Shown: piece after piece, positions 18,064 to 31,499 of the stretch
Layout of the letters: each line of letters starts with the position of its first letter
Position numbering within the stretch: position 1 is the stretch's first letter
IMG/VR virus record: IMGVR_UViG_3300005288_000101
Span: 1-35,139 of that record
Reading direction: 5' to 3' (one strand)
DNA: 35,139 nucleotides
DNA from: a virus
The notes under the pieces: model-generated
Told to the model about the DNA's origin: nothing
Seen by the model: the letters and a program-made list of their open reading frames with translations, nothing else
Databases searched by the model: none
Program-made: the position numbers and the translations under genes

Positions 18064-18111
18064 CTCCAACTTGCGTCGCAACTTAACAAGGTGGTGTTGC
18101 GTGCACGCAAC
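18056..18111. promoter_or_regulatory. Cluster of TTGCG/CGCAA operator-like palindromes
   Basis: Three inverted TTGCG/CGCAA elements stand in a row: TTGCGCAA (18056-18063), TTGCGTCGCAA (18071-18081) and the 16-base perfect palindrome GTTGCGTGCACGCAAC (18096-18111). The last has the same half-sites and four-base spacer as the element in the repressor promoter (18233-18246). They are the likely sites for the repressor or Cro-like protein. Confidence 0.6.
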
Positions 18112-18260: not shown

Positions 18261-18605
18261 ATGTCAAACTCACAGATAACCAGCCCCCACACCCGCTGGT
18301 ACGACTACATACTCAAGGTTTCAAAGGGCCTCACCGCCAAGGAAACAGCAGACCGCGCCGGCTTCGATCAGTCCGCAATGACGCGCTGGAAGAACGGCGC
18401 CAACGCCGATCCGAAGTTCGTTGTCCAGTTCGCCAGGGCCTTCAACCAGAACGTACTCAAGGCCCTTGCCGAGGCCGAGCTAATCACCGACGACGAAGCA
18501 GGCCTTCACGAGGTCAAAATTGGCGTTACTGAGATGAGCACTCACCAGCTCCTTGAAGAGCTGGCTAGGAGGATCGACAATGGAGCCCCACTGCCCGAGC
18601 CGTAA
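18261..18605 (+). CDS. Immunity repressor (helix-turn-helix)
   Basis: The 114-residue protein has a helix-turn-helix at about 24-46 (LTAKETADRAGFDQSAMTRW), preceded by a helical segment (WYDYILKVSKG) and followed by FVVQFARAFNQNVLKALAEA. The C-terminal 40 residues are acidic and helical and probably dimerise the protein. There is no LexA-like self-cleavage domain, so induction probably does not go through RecA-stimulated cleavage. It is transcribed away from the Cro-like gene and its promoter holds an operator, which suggests self-control. The likely role is to keep the lysogen silent and give immunity. Confidence 0.8.
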   Translation: MSNSQITSPHTRWYDYILKVSKGLTAKETADRAGFDQSAMTRWKNGANADPKFVVQFARAFNQNVLKALAEAELITDDEAGLHEVKIGVTEMSTHQLLEELARRIDNGAPLPEP

Positions 18606-26963: not shown

Positions 26964-27560
26964 TTAAGGGTTCTCGCTGACGGCGAGGGAGAAGATGACG
27001 TTACGGACTGCCCCGGCAGCACTGGCCCTGGTCTGCAGCGCGATGGTGTGAGTACCTGCGCCGATGGTCAGTTCGCGTTCCATGACCACCGAGATCGGCG
27101 GGGAGTTGACGCCGGACACGAGTGGCACGTTGTACGTAACGCCGCCGAAATCCGTGGTGCCGTCGATGCGCCACTGCACATCCGCTGTGCGATTCAGACC
27201 CGAGTTCGCGTTCTCAACGACACCCGTATAGGCGAGTTTCAGCTTGCCGCCAAGGCTCGTGAACGTGGTTGATGCGACGGTCGCATACGCAACGCCTGCG
27301 ATAGTTGACGGCGTCGTGTAGTCCCGGCCCCGTTCGGTCGTCGCGGGAACAGCCCAGCGTGACCCGTTCCACGCCTCATGCTTAGCGACGTCGAGCCGGT
27401 AGACAGTAAGCCCCGGATACTTCGCCAGTGCGTCACGAGCCGCGGCATTAGCGACGGGGATAATCACGTTCGCCGTGTTGCCCATGCCCGCGAGGTGCTG
27501 GGTAAGCGCGTACTCGTCGCTGTTCGTTGGTACCTGGATACCGTTTTGTAGGGTCTGCAT
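26964..27560 (-). CDS. Minor tail protein, beta-sandwich type
   Basis: This protein of 198 residues starts in a one-base overlap with the upstream gene (TAATG). The N-terminus (MQTLQNGIQVPTNSDEYALT) and a LAKYPGLTVYRLDVAKHEAWNG segment are typical of phage tail proteins that pack against other tail parts. The C-terminal half (about 80-198) is a beta-sandwich (VASTTFTSLGGKLKLAYTG, HTIALQTRASAAGAV) with a likely carbohydrate-binding or jelly-roll fold. It is probably part of the adsorption apparatus. Confidence 0.75.
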   Translation of the reverse strand: MQTLQNGIQVPTNSDEYALTQHLAGMGNTANVIIPVANAAARDALAKYPGLTVYRLDVAKHEAWNGSRWAVPATTERGRDYTTPSTIAGVAYATVASTTFTSLGGKLKLAYTGVVENANSGLNRTADVQWRIDGTTDFGGVTYNVPLVSGVNSPPISVVMERELTIGAGTHTIALQTRASAAGAVRNVIFSLAVSENP

Positions 27561-28534
27561 TAGCTACTCCAGTTCAAAAGGGTCTTGCCCGACTCGGGGT
27601 TATCTAGGCGTGATTCGAATGCGGCGTAGGATCCGCCGGCGATGCTGATTCCGCCGCCTGCAACGAGGTGCGGGGCGAACGTGCCGGGGTCTAGGTCCAC
27701 GTAGCCGCCCTTGGATCCGGGCTGCACTGTGACGGGGAACGGGCCAGCAACACGCGACACGTCACCGCCCGGACGCGAGCCCGAGTTGTGCGCGTAGAGG
27801 TTGATCGTCACCGCCGCGTTGGATGCGCCGACACTGAGTCGCGCCGGGATCTTGAAGCGAACCCGCGTTATGGTCTTCCCTGCAAGCTCGGGTTTAGGTG
27901 CGCCGTAGAACCAGGCGCCCGTCACCGCGTACCCGCCTTGTGTGCCGGTGTACAGGTCTTCCCCGCCGCGCTGTGATGTGGCCCAGCGACCCCACCCGCC
28001 AACCCCGTACGTATCCGTTGCCGTGGCGATCAGTGCAGTCTCACCCGACGCTGTCCCGGTAGGTGCCATCGGTGCGGCCGTGTGGACGGTTGCAACTGCG
28101 GGGATGATGCCGATGATCGTTGGCATTGCGGCGTCCCATGTGAGGTACACCTGATCGCCGGGCGCGTAGGTCAGCCTCGGTGGTGCGCCGTCTACGTAGG
28201 GGTTTACAAAACGGCTGGTCGAATATGAGCCGCCGTCTTCACCCGTGAAAACAATTTCGGTCACGCCCACTGCCAGAACGGCGCCCGTGCTGGGCCTAGG
28301 CTGATCCGCATAACTGCCAGCGACGTACGCGCTCGACTGCCCCAGCCCGTCGCTGGTGATGTCAATGATGATCTTGCCGCCCTGTAGTGGCTGCATGGGG
28401 TCGGCCCATCTGGCATCCAGCAGACTGTCACCGATGCGGGCGTACCAGCGCGAACCGTCCCAGTGCGCCGTCCCGTACGTGCGGCGCGTATTGCCACCCG
28501 GGATCGCCGCCATGGTGTGTTTGAATCCCGACAT
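27560..28534 (-). CDS. Minor tail protein, 324 aa
   Basis: N-terminal GGNTRRTYGTAHWDGSRWYA and ITSDGLGQSSAYV suggest a tail collar or OB-like domain; a middle region PRLTYAPGDQVYLTWDAAMP has the OB-like RxxYAPGDxV motif. The C-terminal half (about 170-324) is a beta-sandwich (VRFKIPARLSVGASNAAVTI, VAGGGISIAGGSY), probably a host-binding module. It starts with ATG 28534 behind AATAGGAG and stands directly beside the plus-strand cassette. Confidence 0.75.
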   Translation of the reverse strand: MSGFKHTMAAIPGGNTRRTYGTAHWDGSRWYARIGDSLLDARWADPMQPLQGGKIIIDITSDGLGQSSAYVAGSYADQPRPSTGAVLAVGVTEIVFTGEDGGSYSTSRFVNPYVDGAPPRLTYAPGDQVYLTWDAAMPTIIGIIPAVATVHTAAPMAPTGTASGETALIATATDTYGVGGWGRWATSQRGGEDLYTGTQGGYAVTGAWFYGAPKPELAGKTITRVRFKIPARLSVGASNAAVTINLYAHNSGSRPGGDVSRVAGPFPVTVQPGSKGGYVDLDPGTFAPHLVAGGGISIAGGSYAAFESRLDNPESGKTLLNWSS

Positions 28535-28557: not shown

Positions 28558-28586
28558 TTGCGGTGGATATCCACCGGTGTTATAGT
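28558..28586 (+). promoter_or_regulatory. Cassette promoter with a 16-base palindromic operator
   Basis: TTGCGG (28558-28563) and TATAGT (28581-28586) are 17 bases apart. The spacer contains CGGTGGATATCCACCG (28561-28576), a perfect 16-base palindrome that partly covers the -35. Transcription should start near 28593 and read the six-gene plus-strand cassette. A palindrome here is a natural repressor site; the ribbon-helix-helix protein at 29373-29534 is a candidate binder. Confidence 0.65.
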
Positions 28587-28624
28587 TAGTACATCGGAAC
28601 AAGCCGAAGACGGAAGGCAAGACA

Positions 28625-28831
28625 ATGAACGCAGTGAAGATGGCAAACACTCGCAATGGCTGGGCTATCGCGATCATGAAGACCGCGAACCGCAAAAAGG
28701 CGGGTGCTGAAATCTTCTCCGTGGTCCGCGTCAGCCCCAAGAACCAGTACGTCACCCTCACTGACCACAACAACGAAGCCGCAGCGCGGAAGTCGGCCAA
28801 CCACTACTGGGCGCAGGACGTGGCGGCGTGA
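28625..28831 (+). CDS. Cassette gene 1: small basic protein, 68 aa
   Basis: This protein begins MNAVKMANTRNGWAIAIMKT and has a basic first half and two short strands (EIFSVVRVSPKNQ, YVTLTDHNNEA). It may be a small nucleic-acid-binding fold. ATG 28625 follows GGAAGG (28612-28617). The stop overlaps the next gene's GTG. Not recognised. Confidence 0.7.
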   Translation: MNAVKMANTRNGWAIAIMKTANRKKAGAEIFSVVRVSPKNQYVTLTDHNNEAAARKSANHYWAQDVAA

Positions 28832-29079
28832 TCCCGGATGCGGCGGTAGAGGCGGCGGCGCCATGGATAGCAGGCTTCCTGAAGCGGCGCGGACTTGAGC
28901 TGCGCGGGAAGGAGGCCTCGGCGTTGGCAGGGTATGTCCTGGAAGCCGCAGCCCCGCACATGCTGGCCGAGGCGTGGGATGAAGGGTTTGACCGAGGCTT
29001 CTATGATCCGCTCGCAGGTAGCAGTAAAGACGCGAGCGAGTCAGTAGTGGCGAACCCCTACGAGAGGACCGCCAAGTGA
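28828..29079 (+). CDS. Cassette gene 2: IPDAA-type protein, 83 aa
   Basis: Starts at GTG in a GTGA overlap. It begins IPDAAVEAAAPWIAGFLKRRG and holds a helix ending YVLEAAAPHMLAEAWDEGFD. The IPDAAxEAA...LEAAAPH layout is repeated in the last cassette gene (29531-29899), so the two are paralogous at their N-termini. The family occurs in many actinophages without a known function. C-terminal part is polar and probably loose. Confidence 0.7.
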   Translation: MIPDAAVEAAAPWIAGFLKRRGLELRGKEASALAGYVLEAAAPHMLAEAWDEGFDRGFYDPLAGSSKDASESVVANPYERTAK

Positions 29080-29231
29080 GCCCGGAGGGGGCGGTTGAAG
29101 CGGCGCATTTCGCCATCCTGCGAGACGACGGCCGCTGGGGCTGCCTCCGCTGCGACTGGACCGGCGCGACCATAGATGACTACTGGGCCGCACACGAGAC
29201 GAGGCGCGACAATGACAACATCCCCTTCTAA
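29076..29231 (+). CDS. Cassette gene 3: 51-aa zinc-finger-like protein
   Basis: It starts at GTG 29076 in a GTGA overlap and has a GVEAAH-like start (SPEGAVEAAHFAILRDDGR), then CLRC at about 24-27 and WAAHETRR; C, C, and His can form a small zinc site. It is short, with a stop at 29229-29231 that overlaps the next gene by 20 bases. Confidence 0.6.
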   Translation: MSPEGAVEAAHFAILRDDGRWGCLRCDWTGATIDDYWAAHETRRDNDNIPF

Positions 29232-29376
29232 CATCCCGGAAGCCGCGGAGGTGGTTTTGATCGACCACCAGCGCCAGAGCTCAAGTAGCTGCCTCTGCGG
29301 ATGGTCCGAACTTGGCAAGTCCCACCCGTGCCACCAAGCCGCGATGCTGTCCGCCGCCGGGTTGCTGCGACAATGA
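29212..29376 (+). CDS. Cassette gene 4: 54-aa Cys/His protein
   Basis: ATG 29212 lies 20 bases inside the previous gene with GAGGC upstream. After a polar N-terminus come CLCGW (27-31) and HPCH (38-41), giving three Cys and two His, enough for one zinc. The helix AAMLSAAGLLRQ ends the protein. A longer frame to 29176 is rejected. Confidence 0.6.
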   Translation: MTTSPSNIPEAAEVVLIDHQRQSSSSCLCGWSELGKSHPCHQAAMLSAAGLLRQ

Positions 29377-29534
29377 GCCGCGGCACCCCGCACCGGCCTA
29401 TCCGCATCAGTGACGACCTGTGGGCCCGGGCGCAAGCCAAGGCCGCACAGGAAGGCACTACGGCATCCGCCAAGGCCCGCGAACTACTCGAAGCGTGGGC
29501 GGAAGAACCAGCCGAAACAGAGGAGCAAGAATGA
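29373..29534 (+). CDS. Cassette gene 5: ribbon-helix-helix DNA-binding protein
   Basis: This protein of 53 residues (start ATG 29373, ATGA overlap) has the ribbon-helix-helix layout: basic ribbon PHRPIRISD, helix 1 DLWARAQAKAAQEG, turn and helix 2 TASAKARELLEAW, then an acidic tail (EEPAETEEQE). Proteins of the Arc/MetJ/CopG type bind inverted repeats as dimers. The promoter of this operon has a perfect 16-base palindrome, so self-control is a natural hypothesis. It is not an antitoxin by any visible sign, since no toxin-like partner is seen. Confidence 0.8.
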   Translation: MSRGTPHRPIRISDDLWARAQAKAAQEGTTASAKARELLEAWAEEPAETEEQE

Positions 29535-29899
29535 CCAATCAAGTGATCCCGGACGCTGCGTTAGAAGCGGCGCTGCGTGAGTGGGCTATCCGCGGAGGGT
29601 TGTCGCCTGAGGGGATAGTTCGGAACATCCTCGAAGCCGCAGCCCCGCACCTCATGGAACCAAGGCAGACCGCTATCTCATCCGTGCTTGCGCTTCATCG
29701 TGAGGTGGAGTGCCGCGACGAAGACGGCGAACCTACGGGCGGCTCTTGCTGCGAGGAGTGCAAGGACTTGGATGACCATAGCGGCGAACGAGTCCACGAG
29801 GTCTACCCATGCTTGACCGTCCGCGAAATCACAGCCGCACTAGCTGGCAAGGAAACGTACACCGCGATGCGCGACAGGATAGAAGCGCAGGTCATCTAG
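29531..29899 (+). CDS. Cassette gene 6: IPDAA-type protein with Cys cluster, 122 aa
   Basis: Starts at ATG 29531 (ATGA overlap). Residues 5-40 (VIPDAALEAALREWAIRGG, IVRNILEAAAPHL) match gene 2 of the cassette. A middle segment carries C58 and the CCEECKD cluster (about 72-78) and a likely zinc site, then CLTVREITAALAG and a C-terminal helix. Paralogy within one operon suggests duplication. Function unknown. Confidence 0.7.
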   Translation: MTNQVIPDAALEAALREWAIRGGLSPEGIVRNILEAAAPHLMEPRQTAISSVLALHREVECRDEDGEPTGGSCCEECKDLDDHSGERVHEVYPCLTVREITAALAGKETYTAMRDRIEAQVI

Positions 29900-29910
29900 C
29901 CCTCCGCAAC

Positions 29911-29945
29911 CCAAGGCCCCCACCGCGACCCGGTGGGGGCCTTGG
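29911..29945 (+). terminator. Terminator at the end of the plus-strand cassette
   Basis: CCAAGGCCCCCACCG (29911-29925) and its complement (29931-29945) form a perfect 15-bp stem with a five-base loop, followed by TTGTTAC. It lies between the cassette and the stop of the convergent tail gene (29949). Core stem equals that of 18628-18657. Confidence 0.85.
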
Positions 29946-29948
29946 TTG

Positions 29949-31244
29949 TTACAGCAGTGAGTCCCAGATGATCGCGGGGAGTTGGCCCCAGTTCGCGGGC
30001 ATCCGGTCCCATGTGAGTTCGGGCTTACCGGCGGTGATGTGCTTAGCCCATTCGGTACGGGTCAGGGCGGTAACAACATCCGAGTAGGAGCAGGAGACGG
30101 TCAGTGACGTACCGCTGGGGACTGTTGAGCCGCCGCGGGACAGTGACGTGATCAGCCCCGGAAGGTACGCGACCCGGCCGTCAACAGGGCAGCCAACCTC
30201 GATCCGGTCACCAGCCTGCAACTCCGGTCGCGGCGTCGTCTCCACCCGCAGCTCAATCGCCAGGGAAGTGAGGAACGTGTCCCGCAACTCCGCCGCATAC
30301 GCGATGGCGTCCGAATACGTTTCGATCATTTCCGAGGAGTAGAAGAACGGGGCTTTGCGATGAGGACCACCCCACCGCAGCGGGCCCGTCTCGATGGACG
30401 CCACAGCCCGGACAGGCTGCCCGTCGCCCGAGTCCTTGCCCTCTACAACCCAGCGGTTATAGAGGCCGTCAATGGACTGTTTGCGGGACACTGAGACAAG
30501 GCCCGCGGTCGGTTCAACGCGCCACACTGAGGGGCGGTCAAGGCTGTACAGGTGACACTCACCATCGCCGCCCATCCGGTAACGTGCCGACACCAGAGAG
30601 AGAATGTCCTGGCACGCTTCCAAACGCTCACGGTCCCACACTGTTTTGCGGCTGACACTACGATCCCTTACGCCCTCATCAACGACCGTCGGAAAGTAAT
30701 CCTTCGTCAGCCGGCGGAACTCAGACACAACCGTTGCACCAGCGCCGGGGGACTGCGGAACCTCGAAGCGGTCCCGGTCCACATCGAACGTGAGATCCAC
30801 GGCCTCAAGCTTCACGACACCCGCAGAGACGTACACGCGGCGTTCGTGCGGGGAATCCAATGAGTCCGGGACAGCCAGCCCATACTCCGCGATCAGACGC
30901 GAATCAACGACCTCCGTGGGCTCGTTGCCCGTCACGCGGAACCAGCCATAATTCACAGCACCAGCACCGCCGACACGGTAGACGACCTGCAGCATCGTGC
31001 CAGCCACGCCGAGCGGATCATCGAACCGCCACGCTCCGAGAGTGCCGTCAGGATCCGCAATGAGCAGCTTGAACTTCTGCCCAACCTTTACCGAATCCCC
31101 GGCCTCATCATCAGCCGACCAGCTAATAACATCCAGCGGCTCAGGGATGACCAGCGAACCGTCACGCCACGCCCACACCGTCAGCGAGTCAGCCGGGCGC
31201 GAACCTTCAAGGGCCTCCAACGAAGCCTCATCAATCAAACGCAC
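29949..31244 (-). CDS. Minor tail protein (tail tip/hub type), 431 aa
   Basis: This long protein follows the distal tail and spacer genes, the usual place for the tail hub or tail-tip (Tal-like) component. N-terminal residues 1-120 (LVIPEPLDVISWSADDEAG, KFKLLIADPDGTLGAW) are a beta-rich adaptor typical of actinophage minor tail proteins; the middle has helix-rich text, and the last 120 residues a barrel-like domain (LQAGDRIEVGCPVDGRVAYL). It starts at GTG 31244 behind AGGAG. Peptidase activity is not visible. Confidence 0.8.
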   Translation of the reverse strand: MRLIDEASLEALEGSRPADSLTVWAWRDGSLVIPEPLDVISWSADDEAGDSVKVGQKFKLLIADPDGTLGAWRFDDPLGVAGTMLQVVYRVGGAGAVNYGWFRVTGNEPTEVVDSRLIAEYGLAVPDSLDSPHERRVYVSAGVVKLEAVDLTFDVDRDRFEVPQSPGAGATVVSEFRRLTKDYFPTVVDEGVRDRSVSRKTVWDRERLEACQDILSLVSARYRMGGDGECHLYSLDRPSVWRVEPTAGLVSVSRKQSIDGLYNRWVVEGKDSGDGQPVRAVASIETGPLRWGGPHRKAPFFYSSEMIETYSDAIAYAAELRDTFLTSLAIELRVETTPRPELQAGDRIEVGCPVDGRVAYLPGLITSLSRGGSTVPSGTSLTVSCSYSDVVTALTRTEWAKHITAGKPELTWDRMPANWGQLPAIIWDSLL

Positions 31245-31253
31245 GACGGGCTC

Positions 31254-31499
31254 CTAGTTGGCTGGGATGAAAGTGACTCTTGGGACGTCGGTGACATTCT
31301 CCGGCCACGCCTCGCCACCCTCTGGATAGTGGTCATATCCGGGCGGGTAGACCGGATCTTCATGCGTCACTTCGCTGCTAAAGTCGCGCATCCATTGGCG
31401 GCGCTCCTGATTGCGGAGTGCTCGCTTGTCCTTGCCGAAGTCGCAGCACCCGCACGTGCGGTCGCCATAAGCGCCGATACGCCCATACATAGCTGCCAT
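31254..31499 (-). CDS. Small protein within tail operon, CGCC motif, 81 aa
   Basis: The protein has CGCCDFGKDKRALRNQERR, a Cys cluster followed by a basic helix, then a Pro/Tyr-rich polar end (YPPGYDHYPEGGEAW). Short proteins of this pattern sit between tail genes in several actinophages; they may help assembly or be regulatory. Start ATG 31499 is behind GGAGG. Confidence 0.75.
   Translation of the reverse strand: MAAMYGRIGAYGDRTCGCCDFGKDKRALRNQERRQWMRDFSSEVTHEDPVYPPGYDHYPEGGEAWPENVTDVPRVTFIPAN

Follow-up and report, generated by a model that had tools for sequence, protein, structure and literature searches.

A reverse-oriented small-gene cassette with a candidate ribbon-helix-helix autorepressor in the tail operon of an Arthrobacter-type phage

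The window, i.e. the whole stretch of 35,139 bp that was analyzed, is a viral record and represents a temperate Arthrobacter-type siphophage, i.e. a phage of soil-dwelling bacteria. Replication and early genes occupy its left half, the minus strand encodes tail, lysis and lipase genes as well as an integrase, and a gene for an HTH repressor-like protein lies on the plus strand (18261-18605). Within the tail operon, six small genes (28625-29899) are located on the plus strand between two minus-strand minor tail genes, and the closest sequenced kin of both flanking genes are found in Arthrobacter phages (about 48-56% protein identity). Neighboring genes of this cassette overlap by four base pairs at stop and start codons, and only the overlap of g3 and g4 is 20 bp long. 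A preliminary description of this DNA had proposed six coupled genes that interrupt the tail genes, and this arrangement was confirmed by the ORFs and their overlaps. The features are compiled in Table 1.

Table 1. Features of the cassette and of the two adjacent tail genes (positions refer to the window)
Feature	Position	Strand	Description
Minor tail gene, downstream in tail operon	27560-28534	-	homologues annotated as minor tail protein; ribosome site kept
Predicted promoter	28558-28586	+	-35 TTGCGG (28558-28563), 17-nt spacer, -10 TATAGT (28581-28586)
Operator-like perfect palindrome, 16 bp	28561-28576		CGGTGGATATCCACCG; overlaps -35 and spacer
Conserved 5' leader	28593-28624	+	SD-like GGAAGG; ends with AAGGCAAGACA ahead of ATG
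g1	28625-28831	+	68 aa; predicted beta-beta-beta-alpha fold, pLDDT 77
g2	28828-29079	+	83 aa; IPDxAVEAA...LEAAAPH...NPY family
g3	29076-29231	+	51 aa; CxxC...H protein; ORF coupled to g2
g4	29212-29376	+	54 aa; CxCG...H..CH protein; ORF coupled to g5
g5	29373-29534	+	53 aa; predicted RHH DNA-binding protein, proposed autorepressor
g6	29531-29899	+	122 aa; N-half IPDAALEAA...LEAAAPH, C-half CCxxC...H...C
Terminator-like hairpin	29911-29945	+	15-bp perfect stem, -38.4 kcal/mol
Minor tail gene, upstream in tail operon	29949-31244	-	PHROG 1887, tail

The arguments for coding on the plus strand differ between the six genes. For g5 and g6, dN/dS values of about 0.38 and 0.28, respectively, and a third-position bias in comparison with homologues support purifying selection on plus-frame proteins. 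Coding of g1 and g2 is supported by homologues. A g1 homologue in L088 (42%, E 3e-7) lies directly behind the same leader end as in the window; a palindrome does not accompany this leader end, after which the contig continues for only 196 bp. Homologues of g2 are present in L157 (78% over 49 aa) and as gp37 in phage Bridgette, and each of them adjoins an integrase. For g3 and g4, coding is suggested by two features, their coupling and their C/H motifs. The protein g5 matches the Arc-like repressor family PHROG 6506 (E 1.4e-9), its family matches ribbon-helix-helix (RHH) chains of known structure, and homologues were found in L057, L151 and L153 (73-80%) and in the Arthrobacter phage MrSmee (gp27), where the gene adjoins an integrase. 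The g6 homologue in L049 (60%) adjoins a DUF6221 gene and an integrase. The RHH gene and the three proteins with Cys/His clusters (g3, g4 and g6) that had been noticed earlier are present.

Searches for known functions were negative. None of the cassette proteins had a PADLOC match (E 0.1), an NCBIfam match, or a Pfam match above the cut-off, and no membrane segment was found in them. A fold search with the g1 model did not yield a significant match, the g6 model (pLDDT 44) was too poor for use, and protein searches with g6 and g1 in annotated phages as well as a nucleotide search with the cassette DNA in phage records and an Rfam search gave no match. A known anti-phage defence system was rejected because of the PADLOC result. 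Base composition was likewise rejected as evidence of a foreign origin, because the G+C content of the cassette (62.6%) does not differ from that of its neighbors (62.4% and 64.4%); in morons, a deviating composition is common but not required. At a guess, g1 to g4 and g6 might have host-directed or exclusion functions.

The -35 element of the predicted promoter is weak, and a generic promoter and terminator scan of the window missed both the promoter and the hairpin. However, the promoter-like site that had been seen in the preliminary description is supported because the whole unit of promoter, palindrome and leader is conserved in 15 further operons. The position of the transcript start was deduced from the -10 element. 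A possible stem-loop, UCGG-AACAAG-CCGA (28593-28608), lies close to where the mRNA probably begins, and a possible UCGG-N6-CCGA stem-loop also opens the leaders of L117, L144, L148, L151 and L154. At the other end of the cassette, the hairpin has a z score of -5.1, and in 0 of 200 shuffles an equally stable structure was obtained. Its U-tract is weak (UUGGUUGUU); therefore, of the previously claimed strong terminator the very stable hairpin was verified, while its strength as a terminator is likely, but not certain.

The window contains only two perfect palindromes of at least 14 bp, the one in the cassette promoter and GTTGCGTGCACGCAAC (18096-18111). The latter has a divergent HTH gene on either side and probably serves as an operator of the main immunity region. 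The cassette palindrome exists as a single copy in the window, even when three mismatches are allowed, and it differs from the palindrome of the immunity region; for these reasons, the idea that the main repressor of the phage acts at this palindrome was rejected.

Relatives that lack the cassette were compared with the window, a check that had been suggested earlier. The gap between the two tail genes spans 1414 bp in the window versus 6-19 bp in about 60 relatives (viral contigs containing both tail genes), and in these it contains little besides the ribosome site TAGGAGG. Among the matches listed, none of the 56 phage records with a match spanning both genes had an insert at this junction. 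At this junction, small genes in reverse orientation were also found in L003 (670 bp), L009 (310 bp), L010 (856 bp) and L057, where the insert reaches the end of the contig and is at least 231 bp long. Their cargo differs: L003 encodes an IPDEA-type protein and a C/H peptide, L009 and L010 a DUF6221 protein, and L057 an RHH protein; the inserts of L003, L009 and L010 are devoid of the RHH/palindrome unit. L057 and the empty L058 are 99.91% identical across the 5573 bp up to the junction. A tree of the tail proteins requires four changes of state, at least three of which are enforced by well-supported branches. The empty sites in relatives, the near-identical pair with and without insert, and the hot spot with varied cargo strongly support the view that the cassette is a moron that was inserted, in reverse orientation, where the tail operon tolerates additional DNA between two genes.

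Inserts longer than 60 bp occurred at junctions 19|20 (6 of 73) and 20|21. None were found at TMP|19 (0 of 47) and 21|22 (0 of 52), where the median gap is -1, i.e. the genes overlap. The second hot spot, 19|20, lies one gene upstream (L038 5468-5955, L039 5708-5983, L052 5674-5955, L025 1120-1323). The genes inserted there in L025, L038, L039 and L052/L053 look reversed, and no RHH gene was seen among the inserts of L038, L039, L052 and L025. At the same junction, where relatives have about 6 bp, the window itself contains a gene for an 81-aa protein with a CGCC cluster (31254-31499), which is the only forward-oriented insert seen. A third junction is used in phage Anekin (PQ362682.1; L046 10652-10843), in which gp17, a reverse gene for a small membrane protein, sits between the tail chaperone and the tape measure genes. 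The insert of L003 (7291-7963) is flanked, as seen in comparison with L006, by an 18-bp direct repeat, CGACCTRCCCTAGGAGGC, in which the stop codon from upstream and the ribosome site from downstream are duplicated. L007 contains a gene-free insert of 72 bp (2193-2267) with a terminator-like hairpin that is oriented in the tail direction (GGGGTTTTT).

The hot spot had escaped the preliminary description, as had the palindrome/RHH system and the wider promoter family. Among 50,697 phage records, a close RHH relative is present in MrSmee alone, and no other cultured phage was found to contain the unit. In both MrSmee and the window, the spacer of the promoter pattern TTG.../17 nt/TA...T contains a perfect palindrome, and the two also have in common a leader of 27 nt and an identical 15-nt sequence at the first start codon, AAGGCAAGACAATGA. 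The cassette of MrSmee (PV089521, genes 33-27) encodes three IPDxA-type proteins, a CxxCGW protein, a DUF6221-like protein and an RHH protein, is followed by a terminator-like hairpin, and is transcribed against the late genes. A blastn search with the promoter in phage records returned nothing useful, probably because the sequence is short and the cassettes are rare in cultured phages. Further copies came from scans of viral contigs (with the leader end and with palindrome plus leader core) and of Micrococcaceae genomes. In total, the promoter unit together with an RHH gene was found in the window and in 15 other operons of various phages and prophages.

The association of palindrome and RHH gene was quantified for all leader matches in the fetched loci. 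When the match was accompanied by a palindrome of at least 12 bp, an RHH gene followed on the same strand at a distance of 232-1569 bp in 11 of 11 cases, among which L115 and L127 represent the same operon. Leader matches lacking a palindrome had an RHH gene downstream in 2 of 57 cases, and for two AT-rich 10-mer palindromes among the leader matches an RHH gene was absent. Conversely, retrieval by RHH protein revealed a palindromic promoter upstream at all six new loci examined, with a profile that was partly built from genes first spotted near these promoters. With block-shuffled loci, about three palindrome-in-promoter matches are expected by chance. Thus, the palindrome alone is not significant, whereas its place and its association with RHH genes are. 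One candidate, L149, was discarded as a chance pattern match. In the open-access literature we found no paper that describes the RHH/palindrome unit and none on DUF6221; an earlier description elsewhere is possible.

The units are found in two kinds of surroundings. Within structural gene clusters, they lie next to minor tail genes in the window, between two minor tail genes in L144, between minor head and connector genes in L115/L127, in the head-tail region of L151, between minor tail and holin-endolysin genes in L153, and between scaffold and protease genes in L154; the RHH gene of L057 occupies the same tail junction as the window cassette. PHROGs confirmed the structural flanks for L144, L115, L153 and L154 and gave a weak adaptor match for L151. 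All of these cassettes, including the L057 gene, run opposite to the structural genes. As transcription in the tail direction would run towards the lysis genes, reverse insertion would be expected if the unit were active in the lysogen. Integrase-side units, as read from ORFs, are present in MrSmee, L141, L147, L148, L157 and L158. Together, these comparisons place the window cassette in a family of small-gene cassettes that is mainly known here from uncultivated actinophages.

In 15 operons, the center of the palindrome follows RHH ribbon residues 7 and 9 (p = 5e-6 in a permutation test that ignores kinship). The ribbon HRP is paired with the center GTGGATATCCAC (window, L151, L153), (H/V)RT with GTGTATATACAC (nine operons), and RRT with GTGTCATGACAC (L115, L150), and the divergent ribbon LRA of L135 with CTGTATATACAG. 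Because operons and operators are inherited together, the covariation partly reflects kinship. However, L115 and L150 have different leader types despite their shared operator and ribbon type, which argues against pure co-inheritance. An RHH gene of a bacterial chromosome (L163, ribbon PRRS), found independently by protein profile, is preceded by GGTGTCATGACACC 56 bp ahead of its start, and its palindrome TGTCATGACA is the one that the code predicts for arginine at ribbon position 7 (RR).

Taken as a whole, the sequence comparisons make it probable that the cassette is a moron whose g5 product represses its own promoter at the spacer palindrome, in an Arc-like manner. Host RNA polymerase of the sigma-70 type would start at the cassette promoter and produce a single mRNA for g1 to g6. 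The g5 protein would bind the palindrome between the -35 and -10 elements and shut off its own synthesis. Upon entry into a cell free of g5, the promoter would thus become active immediately before being turned down, and in the lysogen it would be kept at a low steady level. The cassette of an incoming phage of the same operator type would be silenced, and the reverse orientation together with the terminator would keep cassette transcription away from the lysis genes. A separately timed or lysogeny-related module, as proposed before, is suggested by the integrase-side homologues of g2, g5 and g6 and by the operator-like palindrome. It had also been asked whether the tail transcript crosses the cassette or restarts at 28534. 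Read-through is likelier, because the gap in the empty relatives is too short for a promoter and because the generic scan, which also missed the cassette promoter, detected none on the minus strand at the cassette. More tentatively, and with somewhat greater doubt than confidence, we propose that mobile, reverse-oriented, RHH-autoregulated cassettes have spread among unrelated actinophages, at structural gene junctions as well as in integrase-side regions, and that the repressor/operator specificity types with the centers GGATATCC, GTATATAC and GTCATGAC might provide phages that share a type with a second immunity against each other at the level of the cassette.

Other explanations were weighed against autorepression by g5. 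The cassette might be a plain lysogeny-expressed moron, with a promoter that is on in the prophage, another regulator, of host or phage origin, at the palindrome, and targets of g5 elsewhere; this would agree with the homologues that adjoin integrases and with an orientation away from the lysis genes. However, every palindromic unit has an RHH gene, the types of ribbon and operator covary, and the window has a single copy of the palindrome and none at its other promoters, which renders this explanation unlikely. RHH antitoxins autoregulate via palindromes, and g5 has a weak match to FitA-like_RHH below the cut-off, as would be expected if g5 were the FitA/VapB-like antitoxin of a type II system and a neighbor the toxin. 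Yet no toxin family was detected in Pfam, NCBIfam or PADLOC. In addition, the cassettes of MrSmee, L144, L147 and L148 end with the RHH gene, and the neighbors of this gene vary between cassettes, so that there is no constant toxin partner; the toxin-antitoxin module was therefore rejected as highly improbable.

We likewise give very little credit to the idea that the transcript acts mainly as an antisense RNA or roadblock and thereby reduces the expression of tail and lysis genes located downstream. The convergent arrangement in seven structural clusters would be in line with it, and a comparable moron of phage P22 is thought to affect the tailspike level through read-through (PMC2629481), but purifying selection acts on the proteins encoded by g5 and g6, and similar cassettes adjoin integrases. 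Finally, displaced early genes devoid of special regulation or role, left as debris of recent recombination, could account for the rapid gain or loss seen in the near-identical pair, but hardly for a conserved promoter unit, a reverse orientation that recurs, coupled genes and purifying selection, and we regard this as extremely improbable.

Autorepression by g5 has a precedent in phage P22. The small repressors of its immI region, such as Arc, are RHH proteins. The 'ant moron' or immunity I region of P22 (mnt, arc, ant, sieA) lies inside the late structural operon, has highly variable cargo, is lacking in some relatives, and encodes Arc as a small, autogenously regulated repressor (PMC2629481, PMC8022706). 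Similarly, the window cassette is located in a structural operon, is absent from relatives and contains an RHH repressor-like gene. However, no antirepressor family was found among the cassette matches in Pfam or PHROGs, and no sieA homologue was recognized; because of the missing antirepressor, the cassette would work like the ant moron without being a member of this group. Further differences are that the actinophage cassettes have a single RHH gene and a palindrome in the promoter spacer, and that, unlike the single site in P22, several junctions in unrelated phages as well as integrase sides are used. With lambdoid morons, as defined in PMC2629481, the cassette shares the presumably independent expression of an insert between genes that adjoin each other in relatives, but it differs by its six genes, its neighbor-like base composition and a promoter-operator-leader unit common to unrelated phages. 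The MrSmee cassette resembles that of the window in promoter unit, palindrome, start site, IPDxA proteins, Cys/His protein, RHH gene and hairpin. It differs in adjoining an integrase outside the tail operon, in encoding DUF6221-like and membrane proteins, and in the operator center (TATATA versus GATATC in the window). Prophage-encoded defence genes of mycobacteriophages and a Gordonia phage (PMC7542560, PMC6426596, PMC6426606) are likewise accessory genes of temperate actinophages and are reported to be expressed from the prophage.

Most small genes of actinophages have no role or regulation assigned. For one class of them, the results provide a recognizable promoter-operator-leader signature, a candidate repressor, and the places and direction of cassette insertion. 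They also offer a testable specificity code that relates RHH ribbon residues to the operator center; should the types exclude each other, a second layer of immunity would exist outside the main repressor. In the low-G+C contigs L099 and L137, the same leader end, AAGGCAAGACAATG, is followed by a distant RHH gene downstream, and in L099 an inverted repeat (CTTGAC-N6-GTCAAG) extends across the -35 element.
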